Origin: a virus
DNA length: 36,994 bases
IMG/VR virus record: IMGVR_UViG_3300042292_000808
Location: 1 to 36,994 of that record
Strand: one strand, 5' to 3'
Shown: in pieces, positions 3,934 through 36,450 of the stretch
Position numbering within the stretch: the stretch's first letter is position 1
Layout of the letters: the number at the start of each line of letters is the position of its first letter
The notes under the pieces: model-generated
Told to the model about the DNA's origin: nothing
Databases searched by the model: none
What the model saw: the letters and a program-made list of their open reading frames with translations, nothing else
Position numbers and translations under genes: made by a program

Positions 3934-4967
3934 GTACCTCTTATCCCATTAACAGACACGTACACTATAATATCATCGAGACGTGCTGTACATTTTATTT
4001 TAAACATCGTCGTAGATGTCAACTCTACGTACGCATCACCTGCGACACCGGTATTAGTAGTACCTGGTACATCAGCACCGTTTGATATGTTGCTTGAGAC
4101 AGTAACAAAGTAATTACTAGCCATTGAAACCGGAAAAGTGCACTCACAAACAACCTCACCAGGTATAGTTGAACCTGGAATAATAATATACCCGGAATAA
4201 TTAACGTAAAATATATTATTTTCAGCTGTGTGCTGTATTGTTGTACCTATAATGAACGGTGTTGCGTTTGTTACTATTAAATCAGCTATTGATGCTTGGT
4301 ATAGTTTACGTTTAATATCAACGTATTTTTTTGTTGCAGCAGAACTGATATTAGAGGTATCATCAATTAACGTTATTGTCGTACTTGTTTCAGATCCTGA
4401 AACAGTTACATAATGATCTAATAACGTGCTATTATTGTTATCGCACGCACATACTAATGTATCAACATATTTTTTTGTTGCTACTACTAATGGGTCACTA
4501 TATGTTTCTATTGAGTCGACTAATAGACTACCTGTCATCTCAATAGAATTGCCGGTTAGTGGTATATAATCTGCAAGAGCTATTGTCAAACTGCTGTCTG
4601 TAACAATTCCAAATAAATCAGGTGACGCAATATTAGTTAATGGCGTCCACTCTAATGCCGCTGCTGTTGCAACACCATCTGAATCAATATATTCTGTTGT
4701 AGATTTGGTACAAAGGTTTAATTGTTTGGTACTAGAATTGTACCATAGTTGACCTTCTAAAACTTGCCCCGCGTAACCTGGTAAATAATCATTACAAAAA
4801 TTCTCAAGTAAACGTATTAAATTGGTATTAAAATCGACGCCCCAATCTGTTGTACTACGACCAAATAACACCAACGGTGTGTTATAGTTTCTTGTACCGG
4901 GTGCTATAACAATAGGTTCTTTACTTGTATCTGAAAAAGAAATTGTATAATTTAAATCAACTGACAT
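3930..4967 (-). CDS. Tail-fibre/adhesin paralogue 3 (KKYVD-repeat family)
   Basis: This 345-residue protein is the last of three tandem paralogues. Residues 1-85 form a shared N-terminal domain recognisable by a GT-N-Y-N-TPLVL strand, a DWGVDFNTNLIRLLENF helix and an EGQLWYNSSTK ending, a pattern I know from baseplate or fibre proteins of large T4-like phages. Two tail-fibre repeats ending ATKKYVD follow (near residues 160 and 215), then a ~115-residue beta-rich C-terminal domain that probably contacts the receptor or another virion protein. It is preceded by the 4975-5985 gene with a 7-base gap, and a hairpin and a new promoter lie downstream. Receptor binding is inferred. Confidence 0.75.
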   Translation of the reverse strand: MSVDLNYTISFSDTSKEPIVIAPGTRNYNTPLVLFGRSTTDWGVDFNTNLIRLLENFCNDYLPGYAGQVLEGQLWYNSSTKQLNLCTKSTTEYIDSDGVATAAALEWTPLTNIASPDLFGIVTDSSLTIALADYIPLTGNSIEMTGSLLVDSIETYSDPLVVATKKYVDTLVCACDNNNSTLLDHYVTVSGSETSTTITLIDDTSNISSAATKKYVDIKRKLYQASIADLIVTNATPFIIGTTIQHTAENNIFYVNYSGYIIIPGSTIPGEVVCECTFPVSMASNYFVTVSSNISNGADVPGTTNTGVAGDAYVELTSTTMFKIKCTARLDDIIVYVSVNGIRGT

Positions 4968-4974
4968 ATTTCAC

Positions 4975-5985
4975 CTATGTTCTCGCTCTGTAACCGTAAA
5001 TGTTACCACAAAATTTAACAGCGCCTGTCGTACCATCACGTTTCACTTTAATATTAGAGCCATTTACAAACGATACATTTAATTTTACATTTGTGTCAAC
5101 AGAAGTACAAACAGCAATAGCACTAAAAACGTAATTAGTCGATGCTGACGACGCTGTAATAAAAGATACAGGTAATTCAATAGTCGCATCACTTGCAGTA
5201 TCAATGATTGTACCATGAAACCACACTACCGTATACCAAGGTGTAGTAACATCTACCCCGCTATCGGTTTTCCGATCTATATCACAGTACGTTGTCACAC
5301 GAAATTGCTCTGGATACTCATTATTGTTTTCTGTATCAACAGTACCCAACTCGTTAACGTACTTTACATTAACGACCGTATCATCGTCACCAGATCTTAA
5401 TGTATCAGCTACTAACAATTTACCCTGCATTTCAATATACCCTGTACGAGGTAAATATGGCGCTGGAGCTAATAATACTGAATCAGCATATTTCTTTGTC
5501 ACCGCTTCATTGTTAAGTGTTGGTTCTAAACCCGATAATGTAACAGTAGCTGGTACACTATTTCCTGATGAGGGTATTAACGTACTTAAAAAATCTTGTA
5601 ATATGTGGGAGCTGTGGTTTGATGTTACACTTGTTTCGTATACGATATCTAAAATATCGTTATTTTCAGTAATAGCAATTTCGCTCCAATCACCATCGTA
5701 AATTGATAATGATTTTGTCGTTGGGTTATAATATTTTTGCCCAAGTATCGGTGAACTCGGTGATGATACATTACTAAAGTTTTCAGTTAAATGTACTAGG
5801 TTAGTAAGTAGATCTTGACCGTAATTAAACGCGCTATCACCGTGCAGCACTAATGAGGTACTTGTATTGCGTTCTCTATACGCTAATGTTTTTGTCGGTG
5901 TTGTTACGTATGTACCGGTATCAGAATCATAAACATTAACAGATTGAGTGTTTGATGAAAAAATTTCTATTGTAGTATCTATCAT
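4975..5985 (-). CDS. Tail-fibre/adhesin paralogue 2 (KKYVD-repeat family)
   Basis: This 336-residue protein shares the N-terminal domain of its neighbours: a TSTSLVLHG strand, FNYGQDLLTNLVHLTENFSN, and a GQKYYNPTTKSLSIYDG ending (residues ~40-105). Two VTKKYAD/VKYVN-type fibre repeats follow, then a C-terminal beta-rich domain different in sequence from those of the paralogues. Its start overlaps the previous gene's stop region by 4 bases (ATGA-type coupling). A conserved base with divergent tips suggests alternative or cooperating receptor-binding proteins; this is inference. Confidence 0.75.
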   Translation of the reverse strand: MIDTTIEIFSSNTQSVNVYDSDTGTYVTTPTKTLAYRERNTSTSLVLHGDSAFNYGQDLLTNLVHLTENFSNVSSPSSPILGQKYYNPTTKSLSIYDGDWSEIAITENNDILDIVYETSVTSNHSSHILQDFLSTLIPSSGNSVPATVTLSGLEPTLNNEAVTKKYADSVLLAPAPYLPRTGYIEMQGKLLVADTLRSGDDDTVVNVKYVNELGTVDTENNNEYPEQFRVTTYCDIDRKTDSGVDVTTPWYTVVWFHGTIIDTASDATIELPVSFITASSASTNYVFSAIAVCTSVDTNVKLNVSFVNGSNIKVKRDGTTGAVKFCGNIYGYRART

Positions 5986-6902
5986 GACGTAAATCCACTA
6001 ACTGAAAAGTTAACAGAAACAGCTTTTGTTAATGTTATGTGTTTAATTATTCTTAATACTATTTCCGATTTTGTGTTAGTCGTAACATAAGCACTAACGT
6101 CAATAGTAGCGTCAAACGTACCGGTCACATTTACTAAAGCGCATTCATTAACAATATCAGTTACTGGCAATAAGATATCAACAAATGGTACAGACGCGGA
6201 TACATCAACATTGCCAAATATTTGAATTTGGTTTGCAGGTTTAAACAAAACCGTATTGATTTTACCGGTAGCTAAACCACTTGTAACAGTTATAGCTTGA
6301 TCAATTGTCTTAACAATTTGAGGTACTGTTGAATCAGCGTATTTTTTTGTAGCTGCTTGATTAGGTTGTGATACACTAATGTTCCGAGTTATTATAGCAC
6401 CGGTAGGGATTACTGTGTTACCATATACAGATATTAAATCACCAATTTGCTTTGGTTGTAAATTATCAACATACTGTTTGGTTACAGCTGCATTATCACT
6501 ATCGCTGATTGATGTAGGCTTAAGCAATAATGTACCGACCATATCACCGCCGTTGACCTTCAAATAATTGCTTATTTTTATTTCTAATGCAGCTGGGTTT
6601 ACAGCTTCATCTGGTACAGTAGGTCGGTTTGTATAACCTACAGGTGTCCAGTAGGTACCGTCATATACGTTAAGAGCTTTTGTTTCTGTGTTATACCAGG
6701 TTTGTCCTTCAATTGGGTTAGCTGGTGGTAAATCATTGCAAAAACTCTCTAATAAATGGTAAAAACACGAATTGAGGTCTTTACCATAGTTGACGCTGTT
6801 TTTTCCTGGCAAAGTCAAAGTCGTTTGAGAATTGAATGTTCGGTACCCAACCTCAAACGGTGTTTTTGATTTGTTAGAAAATTCAATTCTATATTTGTCC
6901 AT
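5982..6902 (-). CDS. Tail-fibre/adhesin paralogue 1 (KKYVD-repeat family)
   Basis: This 306-residue protein is the shortest of the three paralogues and directly abuts the ADP-ribosyltransferase gene (stop at 6903, start at 6902). Its N-terminal domain has the same landmarks: a TTLTLPGK strand, NYGKDLNSCFYHLLESFCN, and an IEGQTWYNTETKALNVYDG ending. Two fibre repeats with VTKQYVD and ATKKYAD follow, then ~100 residues of beta-rich C-terminal domain. It belongs to the late operon starting at the TATAAATA near 8050, in line with a virion protein. The target is unknown. Confidence 0.75.
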   Translation of the reverse strand: MDKYRIEFSNKSKTPFEVGYRTFNSQTTLTLPGKNSVNYGKDLNSCFYHLLESFCNDLPPANPIEGQTWYNTETKALNVYDGTYWTPVGYTNRPTVPDEAVNPAALEIKISNYLKVNGGDMVGTLLLKPTSISDSDNAAVTKQYVDNLQPKQIGDLISVYGNTVIPTGAIITRNISVSQPNQAATKKYADSTVPQIVKTIDQAITVTSGLATGKINTVLFKPANQIQIFGNVDVSASVPFVDILLPVTDIVNECALVNVTGTFDATIDVSAYVTTNTKSEIVLRIIKHITLTKAVSVNFSVSGFTS

Positions 6903-29022: not shown

Positions 29023-29910
29023 ATGACTTTACCTGCATCTGGATCATCAATATCGCTAAATCAAGTTAATGTAGAACTGGGATTAAGTGGAACTACTACT
29101 ATAACAATGAACCAGACTACGCTTAGAACATTGTTTGCAGTAGCTAGTGGTGCTATATCTATGAGTAATGGATTTAGTAAAAGTGCTGTCACTGCTGCCG
29201 TATCGTCTATTGCTGTATCTGGTTCAGCTTCTACTAATCCCTTTACAAATGGAACATGGACTGTTTTAATAACTTATACTAATTCAACCACTAGCACTGA
29301 TTGTACTAAATTAACATGGGCATGGTATAATGGTGTTGTTAATACTGGAACGTTAACTGGGTGGGTATTAACAGTATCTACTGCAAATGTAACAGGAAAA
29401 AATACTGCTGGGGCAGGTACCGGATACATTAAAGCTACAGATACATCTACTGGAATATATGGAAGTAAAGTTGTATCTTGGACTTGTTTACCGTTAACAA
29501 CATTAATTACAATGTCAGATGGAACTCAGAAGGAAATGAGTAAAATTGGTGTGGGTGATACAATAAAAGCTGTAAATACTGAAACTAATGAATTATCTGA
29601 TGAAAAAGTAACGTTTGTTCTTGATACTATTAAATCATATAATTTAATAAAAATAATTTGCGAAGATAATATCATAATAGAACCAACACCAGAACACGAA
29701 ATCTGGATTAAACGCGATGGTATTACTCTATGGGTAGAGTCAAAAACTGTTATTTTTGGTGACGAATTATTAGCAGATAATTTGTCTTATAAAAAAGTTA
29801 TTTCGGTTGAGGCTATTAATTATCCAGATGGTATTGAAGTCGGAAATATATCAGTAGCAAATGCCAAGGTTTATTTTGCGGAACGCTTACTTATGCATAA
29901 CACTGGCTAA
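29023..29910 (+). CDS. Virion protein with C-terminal Hint (intein-like) domain
   Basis: The 295-residue protein has three parts. Residues 1-53 are a common phage structural N-terminus (SISLNQVNVELGLSGTT, then ASGAISMSNGFSKS). Residues ~57-154 are an Ig-like beta-sandwich. Residues 155-293 are a mini Hint domain: Cys155 starts block A (CLPLTTLITMSDG, then VGDTI), block B is T222-P-E-H225, and it ends VYFAERLLMHN with His292-Asn293, then Thr-Gly-stop. Hint domains activate the peptide bond before the Cys as a thioester and can cut or transfer it, so the Ig-bearing part could be released or attached to another molecule. There is no endonuclease and practically no C-extein, so it resembles bacterial intein-like domains rather than a mobile intein. 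It lies two bases after the fibre-assembly gene. Confidence 0.85.
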   Translation: MTLPASGSSISLNQVNVELGLSGTTTITMNQTTLRTLFAVASGAISMSNGFSKSAVTAAVSSIAVSGSASTNPFTNGTWTVLITYTNSTTSTDCTKLTWAWYNGVVNTGTLTGWVLTVSTANVTGKNTAGAGTGYIKATDTSTGIYGSKVVSWTCLPLTTLITMSDGTQKEMSKIGVGDTIKAVNTETNELSDEKVTFVLDTIKSYNLIKIICEDNIIIEPTPEHEIWIKRDGITLWVESKTVIFGDELLADNLSYKKVISVEAINYPDGIEVGNISVANAKVYFAERLLMHNTG

Positions 29911-29923
29911 AGGCCAGTGTTAT
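29897..29923 (+). other. Perfect 11-bp hairpin over the Hint gene's stop codon
   Basis: Bases 29897-29907 pair perfectly with 29913-29923 around a 5-base loop that holds most of the TAA stop. The left arm encodes the essential His-Asn-Thr-Gly end. No U tract follows, so it is a poor intrinsic terminator; mRNA 3'-end protection or control of downstream translation are options. Confidence 0.55.
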
Positions 29924-34101: not shown

Positions 34102-36450
34102 ATGTCAAAATTTCCAGGTGGTATGGTTGGAAGTGTTAGTAATACACCTAGCGGTACAGCGTATACAGGTAAAGCTAATGGTATCTGGTCTTTACCGCAC
34201 CATATTGCTGCAAAAAGCGCTTTGCAGTGGGCGATAGGTCAAACTAAACCAAATCCTCCTACTATTGGGTCTGCGACCGCTATATCATCATCGTCTGTAT
34301 CAGTTGCATTTATACCTCCAGTTCAAGACGGTGGATCAACTATTACGATTTACACGGTAACATCATCCGGTGGTCAAACGGCAACAGGTTCAAGCTCACC
34401 TATCGTGGTTACCGGGCTAACAGCGGGTACAAACTATACATTTACTGTAACCGCAACTAATAATCTCGGTACGAGTATTAGTTCTGGTACATCAAATAGC
34501 ACATCACCTATATCAAATGATGCGTATTTTAATTCAGTTTCATTGTTACTGAATGGTGATACAATAACAGACTTAAGTAATACACCAAAGGTGATCACTA
34601 ATACCGGACCAGTAACAATCAATACTACTACTAAACAGTTCGGTACCGGTTCAATGTCTTTCAATGGATCTACTAGTTATTTGAGTATGCCGGTCACCGC
34701 TAGTACCGTAATCAATGGTAGTGAAAATTTTACTATAGAAGCTTGGTTATATCCCACATCAGCGACAACCTACCATTGTATATATTCAGGACAATGGGCT
34801 ATTCAAGTGTATATGAATGTTAGTCGAAAAATCGAATTAGCTATGTCGACATCTGCATCATCGGGTAGTTATATAACAACTCAGCAGTCAACTGGAACTT
34901 TAACTTTAAATCAATGGACGCATGTCGCAGTAACACGCACCGGTAACAATTTTACCATATTCTTAAACGGTACTTTAGACTCTACGTATGCATCTGCTGG
35001 TGGTAGTATTGGTACATGTACATCTACAGCTGTCGGGTGTTTTAATAACAATCAATATTTCTTTACTGGTTTTATTGATGATTTTAGAGTTACCAAAGGT
35101 TTAGCTAGATATACAGCTAACTTTACCCCACCTGTCGCGGCATTTATTGCATCAGGTCCCACACAAGCTGATCCTTATTATAGTTCAGTTAGTTTGTTAT
35201 TGAATGGTGATGGTACTAATGGCTCACAGGTATTCACGGATTTGAGTAGTAGCCCTAAGACTATAACAGCTAACGGTAATGCTCAGATTAGTACTGCTCA
35301 GCAAAGGTATGGTACCGGCGCTATGTACTTCGATGGTAATGGTGATTATTTGAGTTTATCTACATCTCCATACTTTAACTTTGGGACGGGTGACTTTACT
35401 ATTGAGGTATGGATTAAAACTAATACTAAAGTTGATTACCAATCTATATTCATCAGTGGTGATATTGGCTTGTGGATGCACACTAATTCTGCTGGTAATT
35501 TTATATATGGCGCTGGTAGTGGTGACAGACTAGCAGGATACGGACAAGTTTGTGACGATGCATGGCATCATATAGCAATCACAAGAGCTAGTGGTACTGT
35601 TAGAGTATTCGTCGATGGTGTACAAAAAGATACAACATCAAACACGACAGCTATAAATTTAACTAACCCAATTACAATTGGTACTTATAGTAGTAGTAGG
35701 TACTACACTGGGTATATGGATGACTTCCGTATTACAAAAGGTGTAGCAAGATACACCACTAATTTCACACCACCCTCAGCAGCATTTCTGGCGTCTAATA
35801 CGAACACCGTTAGTCCCGTTGATCCAATATTTTCAAATGTTAGTTTGTTGTTAAACGGTGACACACTAACAGATTCAAGTAGTGTTCCTAAAACTATTAC
35901 TAATAATGGATCAGTAGCTGTAAATACAACTACTAAGAAATTTGGTACAGGTAGTTTATATTTTAGTGGGTCGTCAAGTTACTTGAGCATACCGTACAGT
36001 AGTGCATTTAATTTTACAAGTGGTACATTTACGTTTGAGTGTTGGATATATCAACTAGCGAACGGAGGTACAGGACACTACATCCTTGATCAACGTAACT
36101 TCCCAACAGGTACTGGATTCTCAATCAACGGTGGTATACCTACATTAATGTACGCTGGGATGAATGAAGCAAGAGGTACAACTGCAATACCGTTAAATAC
36201 TTGGACTCACGTAGCAATATCAGTACTTAGTGGTACTGCACGTATATATATTAATGGTGTGCAAACATTTTATGGAACTGGTTATACATTCCCTGATGTA
36301 TCCGGTACTAATACACCACTATGGGTTGGAGCGCCAAATTCATACAGTGTGTTCTTAAATGCGTACGTCGATGATCTTAGAATAACAAATGGTATAGCTC
36401 GATACACCAGTGATTTTGTACCACCAGCTCAAGCATTACCAACATCATAA
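34102..36450 (+). CDS. Adhesin: GxW anchor, FN3 domain, three LamG-like lectin domains
   Basis: The 782-residue protein starts with the anchor (FPGGMV; GTAYTGKANGIWSLPHH, residues 3-40), then one FN3-like domain (~50-138). Three LamG/concanavalin-A-like domains of ~200 residues follow, each with a SLLLNGD start, a FGTGSMSFNGSxxYLSM-type strand, FTIEAWLYP, WTHVAVTR, FLNG and a final DDFRVTKGLARYT...F-PP. Such domains bind sugars or proteins, so this is a good candidate host-glycan receptor-binding protein. The first half is homologous to the 19501 adhesin, which has a Gly-rich tip instead. An AGGGG site precedes ATG 34102. Confidence 0.85.
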   Translation: MSKFPGGMVGSVSNTPSGTAYTGKANGIWSLPHHIAAKSALQWAIGQTKPNPPTIGSATAISSSSVSVAFIPPVQDGGSTITIYTVTSSGGQTATGSSSPIVVTGLTAGTNYTFTVTATNNLGTSISSGTSNSTSPISNDAYFNSVSLLLNGDTITDLSNTPKVITNTGPVTINTTTKQFGTGSMSFNGSTSYLSMPVTASTVINGSENFTIEAWLYPTSATTYHCIYSGQWAIQVYMNVSRKIELAMSTSASSGSYITTQQSTGTLTLNQWTHVAVTRTGNNFTIFLNGTLDSTYASAGGSIGTCTSTAVGCFNNNQYFFTGFIDDFRVTKGLARYTANFTPPVAAFIASGPTQADPYYSSVSLLLNGDGTNGSQVFTDLSSSPKTITANGNAQISTAQQRYGTGAMYFDGNGDYLSLSTSPYFNFGTGDFTIEVWIKTNTKVDYQSIFISGDIGLWMHTNSAGNFIYGAGSGDRLAGYGQVCDDAWHHIAITRASGTVRVFVDGVQKDTTSNTTAINLTNPITIGTYSSSRYYTGYMDDFRITKGVARYTTNFTPPSAAFLASNTNTVSPVDPIFSNVSLLLNGDTLTDSSSVPKTITNNGSVAVNTTTKKFGTGSLYFSGSSSYLSIPYSSAFNFTSGTFTFECWIYQLANGGTGHYILDQRNFPTGTGFSINGGIPTLMYAGMNEARGTTAIPLNTWTHVAISVLSGTARIYINGVQTFYGTGYTFPDVSGTNTPLWVGAPNSYSVFLNAYVDDLRITNGIARYTSDFVPPAQALPTS

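Follow-up and report, generated by a model that had tools for sequence, protein, structure and literature searches.

A protein encoded by an uncultivated phage is, over approximately its last half, a Hint domain, and its sequence together with a structural model of that domain lead us to lean towards reading it as a tail adhesin or tip protein of modular build, whose intein-like C-terminal Hint domain removes itself after synthesis. The DNA analysed (hereafter the window) is the 36,994-nucleotide IMG/VR record IMGVR_UViG_3300042292_000808, and the open reading frame in question, at 29023..29910 on the plus strand, translates into 295 residues that include Cys155, T222-P-E-H225, H292-N293 and T294-G295 before the stop. 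A sequence-only reading of this DNA had pointed to an intact block A Cys155, a TPEH motif and a terminal His-Asn, and these are borne out by the translation, a profile of phage Hint domains, an AF2 model and Foldseek. In agreement with that reading, a virion-type protein bears at its extreme C-terminus an apparently intact Hint domain, the likely outcome being self-cleavage. The same reading had called such a protein unusual, which was overtaken by the finding that many phage proteins terminate in a Hint domain; what is new is the layout and the fact that it recurs, not the chemistry.

Layout of the protein and fold of its Hint domain

The N-terminal 54 residues (29023..29184, plus strand, as are all features of this gene) form an anchor module with the motif LPxSGxISLNQVNVELG...GKS, which recurs in 54 other IMG/VR phage proteins; these differ in their C-terminal parts, often Gly-rich, and have no Hint domain. 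It is followed by a variable, beta-rich middle domain (residues 55-154, 29185..29484), whose final SWT abuts Cys155. This domain is probably Ig-like, which we only infer, because the full-length model, built from eight sequences, reached a pLDDT of only 38. The Hint domain itself (residues 155-293, 29485..29901), assigned by profile and fold, is of mini-intein size and without an endonuclease. It opens with the block A Cys155 (29485..29487), the predicted nucleophile of an N-S acyl shift, continues through the block B T-P-E-H (residues 222-225, 29686..29697) and closes with the block G His292-Asn293 (29896..29901), leaving a C-terminal tail of Thr294-Gly295 (29902..29907) before the stop. In our reading the whole is an adhesin or tip protein built of modules, its body presumably carried in the virion; the label 'phage structural' would follow from the anchor that it shares with other phage proteins and from the fibre genes nearby. 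The latter had been named in the earlier reading and were found, whereas the glycosyltransferases it placed beside them amounted to sub-threshold matches only.

When the window sequence was searched alone, the Pfam matches to Hint (E 3.5e-4; 22.5 bits, cut-off 29.7) and Intein_splicing (E 4e-4; 24.0 bits, cut-off 35.8) both fell under the curated cut-offs. An alignment (A3) that combined the window's Hint and 33 Hint domains of other phage proteins served to build a profile and a model. Compared with PDB chains, the A3 profile placed the BIL domain 2lwy first (E 3e-15), with 6y75 at E 1e-12, and the AF2 model of residues 148-295, covering the Hint only, reached a pLDDT of 91.7 and a pTM of 0.85. 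Foldseek matched this model best to the BIL domains 6y75/6tmm and 2lwy (query-normalised TM 0.85-0.87; E 2e-11 to 6y75), the closest being BIL2 from the Tetrahymena BUBL1 locus, and next to gp41-1, archaeal and DnaB inteins, and Hedgehog 1at0. The Hint call, weak by the single sequence, is firm by profile and fold, and by its predicted fold the stretch from residue 155 to 293 is a member of the Hint superfamily.

With A-type BIL domains (2lwy from Clostridium thermocellum, 6y75/6tmm from Tetrahymena BUBL1), its best fold and profile matches, the window's Hint has in common Cys1, a block B TxxH, a terminal HN, the lack of an endonuclease and a variable host protein. BIL domains generally lack a +1 nucleophile (PMC7664689); unlike them, the window's family has an invariant Thr at this position. 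Class 1 mini-inteins (gp41-1, 6qaz) are likewise similar in Cys1, TxxH, HN, the +1 Thr and size, and every class 1 residue (Cys/Ser1, HN and Cys/Ser/Thr +1) is present. Unlike in these inteins, there is no real C-extein, just Thr or Thr-Gly after Asn293 where two joined exteins define the class, and in place of a conserved enzyme split at a conserved site the host is a variable adhesin. The Hedgehog autoprocessing domain (1at0) offers a third parallel, as a C-terminal Hint acting on its N-part via a thioester. In Hedgehog, a sterol-recognition region follows the Hint and the terminal HN is absent; in contrast, the window's ORF stops two residues past Asn293, with no acceptor-recognition region beyond HN-Thr-Gly. 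In its working, the window's Hint would resemble an A-type BIL domain or a mini-intein, with neither definition fitting fully: its +1 nucleophile sets it apart from the former, and the lack of two exteins to join from the latter.

The comparison with Hedgehog bears on another suggestion of the earlier reading, namely that the thioester passes the structural part to the protein itself, to another fibre or to a host-surface amine. In more general form, an amine of the host surface, of a second virion protein or of the protein itself would resolve the thioester into a covalent adduct, in a Hedgehog- or BUBL-like manner. The chemistry for this would be available, and BIL2 of Tetrahymena BUBL1, to which the model is closest in structure, belongs to a system proposed to conjugate ubiquitin-like domains. 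Nevertheless, we consider such transfer very unlikely, as nothing past the Hint would recognise an acceptor, no conserved acceptor was identified, and this route has no need of a conserved HN and +1 Thr.

Conservation and domain swapping in the close family

A search for homologues of the same architecture, as the sequence-only reading had proposed, yielded eight loci in IMG/VR with full-length relatives (seven distinct proteins, 58-67% identity over the whole alignment), whose gene, where the contig extends, is flanked identically by a DUF7936 gene upstream and an MFDIIVLSS gene downstream. In the genome contigs collection no relative of the window protein was found, and in the phages collection the query P0001 matched just one Vibrio phage gene, annotated as a DNA helicase; the match is to the Hint part, at 27% identity, and would fit an ordinary intein. 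Cys155, TPEH, HN and Thr294 are invariant in the window and all seven distinct homologues. Cys155 is encoded by TGT in every homologue, the codon of the +1 Thr varies (ACT/ACG/ACA), and synonymous changes are also found at the His, Asn and TPEH codons, pS between the homologues and the window being about 0.6 in the Hint. Since these residues are invariant while their codons, that of Cys155 aside, change synonymously, the Hint is not a matter of chance. Gly295 is absent in one homologue (L001) and may be incidental.

The anchor and the Hint are far more alike between homologues than the middle domain, whose identity is 39-74% when the near-identical pairs L003/L004 and L005/L007 are left out. 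Between L005 and L006, identity is 100% over residues 1-54, falls to 41% over residues 55-152 and returns to 94% in the Hint; judged by these values, the middle domain is swapped among otherwise near-identical proteins.

Four of the relatives also carry an 81-aa ORF (L004:6919-7164, L005:6913-7158, L006:2739-2984 and L007:6913-7158), in frame and straight after the stop of the Hint gene, that repeats the second half of the Hint from block B to HNT in another subtype (MTHIVLE[PS]TPEHE...LLMHNT, then stop). The junction is identical in all four, which implies a single origin for the ORF. Purifying selection on it, suggested by 14 synonymous versus 3 non-synonymous changes, was dropped as a candidate once its regions were taken separately: the last 25 codons account for most of the signal, and the unique part holds 3 versus 0-1 changes. 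Within the region of the last 25 codons, the L006 ORF is identical to its own Hint at 64/66 positions and shows signs of gene conversion. This C-half is probably a recombination remnant that later underwent gene conversion, and an action in trans is possible; of a free N-half that might complement it, as in a split intein, none was found on the partial contigs of these four relatives. A similar case is phage NCTB, in which BN7874_135 (L236:2744-3205), a free-standing Hint-like protein of 153 aa that lacks Cys1 and ends in HNKVD, adjoins a tail protein with a Hint of its own.

These swaps raise the idea that the Hint is chiefly a conserved recombination platform for exchanging adhesive domains, its protein chemistry being secondary. 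The contrast within the L005/L006 pair would fit, as would the leftover C-half with its signs of conversion, but a platform would have no need for the protein to keep its Cys, His, Asn and Thr, and we give this idea very little credence.

Terminal Hint domains on other phage proteins

IMG/VR was scanned for C-ends of the form YFAxx[hydrophobic]..HN plus one or two residues and a stop, a pattern that restricts block F. Among the scanned ORFs classed as Hint, many of them near-duplicates, the endings were HNK (69), HNT/HNTG (10), HNIK (two) and HNES (two), Lys nearly always following HN at the protein end in the phage terminal Hint domains of these contigs. The domains sit on several unrelated bodies, including fn3 + PFFP-repeat stalks, PASTA-like proteins and PT-rich repeats. 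Although A3 was sampled by the C-end alone, every complete domain in it has Cys1 and the T and H of block B, which are invariant, as is the HN.

In cultured jumbo phages of Erwinia, Dickeya and Yersinia, a tail protein (about 50 records including duplicates, eight examined in full) ends in a C-terminal Hint with a short tail, e.g., HN-TDIVAKAEKK. AD1, Y3, Alexandra, Yoloswag and fHe-Yen9-02 share this layout. Like the window protein, NCTB BN7874_136, Y3 gp110 and AD1 gp108 have a C-terminal Hint with Cys1, the block B His and HN; unlike it, they have an unrelated, collagen-like N-terminal body and a tail of 7-12 residues past HN, with Thr, Val, Met or Ala at +1. The NCTB gene is annotated 'putative phage tail protein, contains intein domain', with the same note in Y3, and the tail cluster of Yoloswag holds more genes annotated 'contains intein domain' or 'putative large intein domain protein' (L246:1527-1733, 4658-6679). 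The orthologues in the Dickeya phages JA11/JA29 align over the full body and end in ...ARNPK, approximately five residues before Cys1; the body of this tail protein is therefore viable without a Hint, and the Erwinia/Dickeya jumbo phages versus JA11/JA29 offer a natural comparison for Hint function. In a search of an open-access library, no paper on the terminal Hint domains of phage tail proteins or on their function was found.

The fn3/PFFP stalk proteins were sampled by the N-terminus only (62 distinct proteins). A Hint-like C-terminus is found on 23, and 39 have none, three of these being ended by a contig edge. Cys1 and HN are kept in 16 of the 23, all ending in HNK, two of which lost the block B His; the other seven lack HN, three retaining Cys1 and four having lost it too. 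Since catalytic residues are lost in these seven, the fold can outlive catalysis, and some of these domains would be inert or structural, a caution for any Hint family known from sequence alone. Losses of Cys, His or Asn in homologues had been named by the earlier reading as a mark of inertness: none occur in the window and its seven distinct homologues, and they do occur in these distant stalks. By the same token, the window's Hint might be a structural or relic domain that folds and caps the protein, its reaction lost or irrelevant, and the fact that a Hint is just one of several alternative C-terminal modules on the stalk would suit such a role. We hold this to be unlikely, as the eight sequences of the window's family show no catalytic change despite the large synonymous divergence of their Hint from that of the window.

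Predicted removal of the Hint domain

Under the self-removal that we favour, Cys155, assisted by TPEH, would attack the Thr154-Cys155 peptide bond, and the resulting thioester at Cys155 is the likeliest step. Water might then resolve the thioester (BIL-type cleavage), giving product 1-154, or Thr294 might do so together with cyclisation of Asn293 (minimal splicing), giving 1-154 plus Thr-Gly; by both routes, the mature virion protein would lose its Hint. The second route runs counter to the earlier statement that a two-residue C-extein rules out splicing: Thr is a legal intein +1 nucleophile and is invariant here, so the appending of Thr or Thr-Gly is possible. The conserved Thr294 argues mildly for this route in the window's family; the +1 residue elsewhere is Lys, Val, Ala, Met or Ile, and thus canonical splicing cannot be the general purpose.

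Several lines of evidence would favour self-removal: no catalytic position is degraded in the window protein or varies within the family, with the +1 Thr held despite codon change; the Hint fold is confidently predicted and closest to BIL domains whose cleavage is known; Cys1 is kept throughout the complete A3 domains; and, by analogy, the JA11/JA29 orthologues present a Hint-less form of an unrelated tail protein with the same layout. Against it stand the stalk domains without HN or Cys1, and the retention of both HN and the +1 residue, for which a purely cleaving Hint offers no obvious reason.

As to why a phage would need its Hint removed, our guess is a removable folding or assembly cap, similar to an S74-type chaperone. 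The S74-type intramolecular chaperone autopeptidase is a C-terminal self-removing domain of phage tail fibres and spikes (PMC7824862); its fold and chemistry (Ser/Lys) are unrelated to those of the window's Hint, and the likeness is an analogy only. If the domain is active, phages would mature a variable tail protein by intein chemistry, an alternative to S74-type chaperone domains. A broader and quite unlikely proposal is that terminal Hints are a device, widespread among phages, by which tail adhesins acquire either a covalent cross-link or an end of defined chemistry, the thioester joining the adhesin C-terminus, after Hint release, to the +1 residue or to a virion or host amine. The recurrence on unrelated bodies, the usual HN-Lys/HN-Thr ending and the Hint-less orthologues make the question testable in cultured phages, and a naturally tail-less mini-intein would be of interest to protein engineers.

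Two further features of the window were observed. The final codons and stop of the Hint gene are spanned by a 12-bp hairpin without a U-run (29897-29923; -17.7 kcal/mol, z -4.9), and none was seen by eye in the L001 and L008 sequences. Downstream, positions 34102-36450 encode a protein of 782 aa in which an fn3 domain accompanies repeated LamG-like lectin domains and which resembles phage baseplate/structural proteins.
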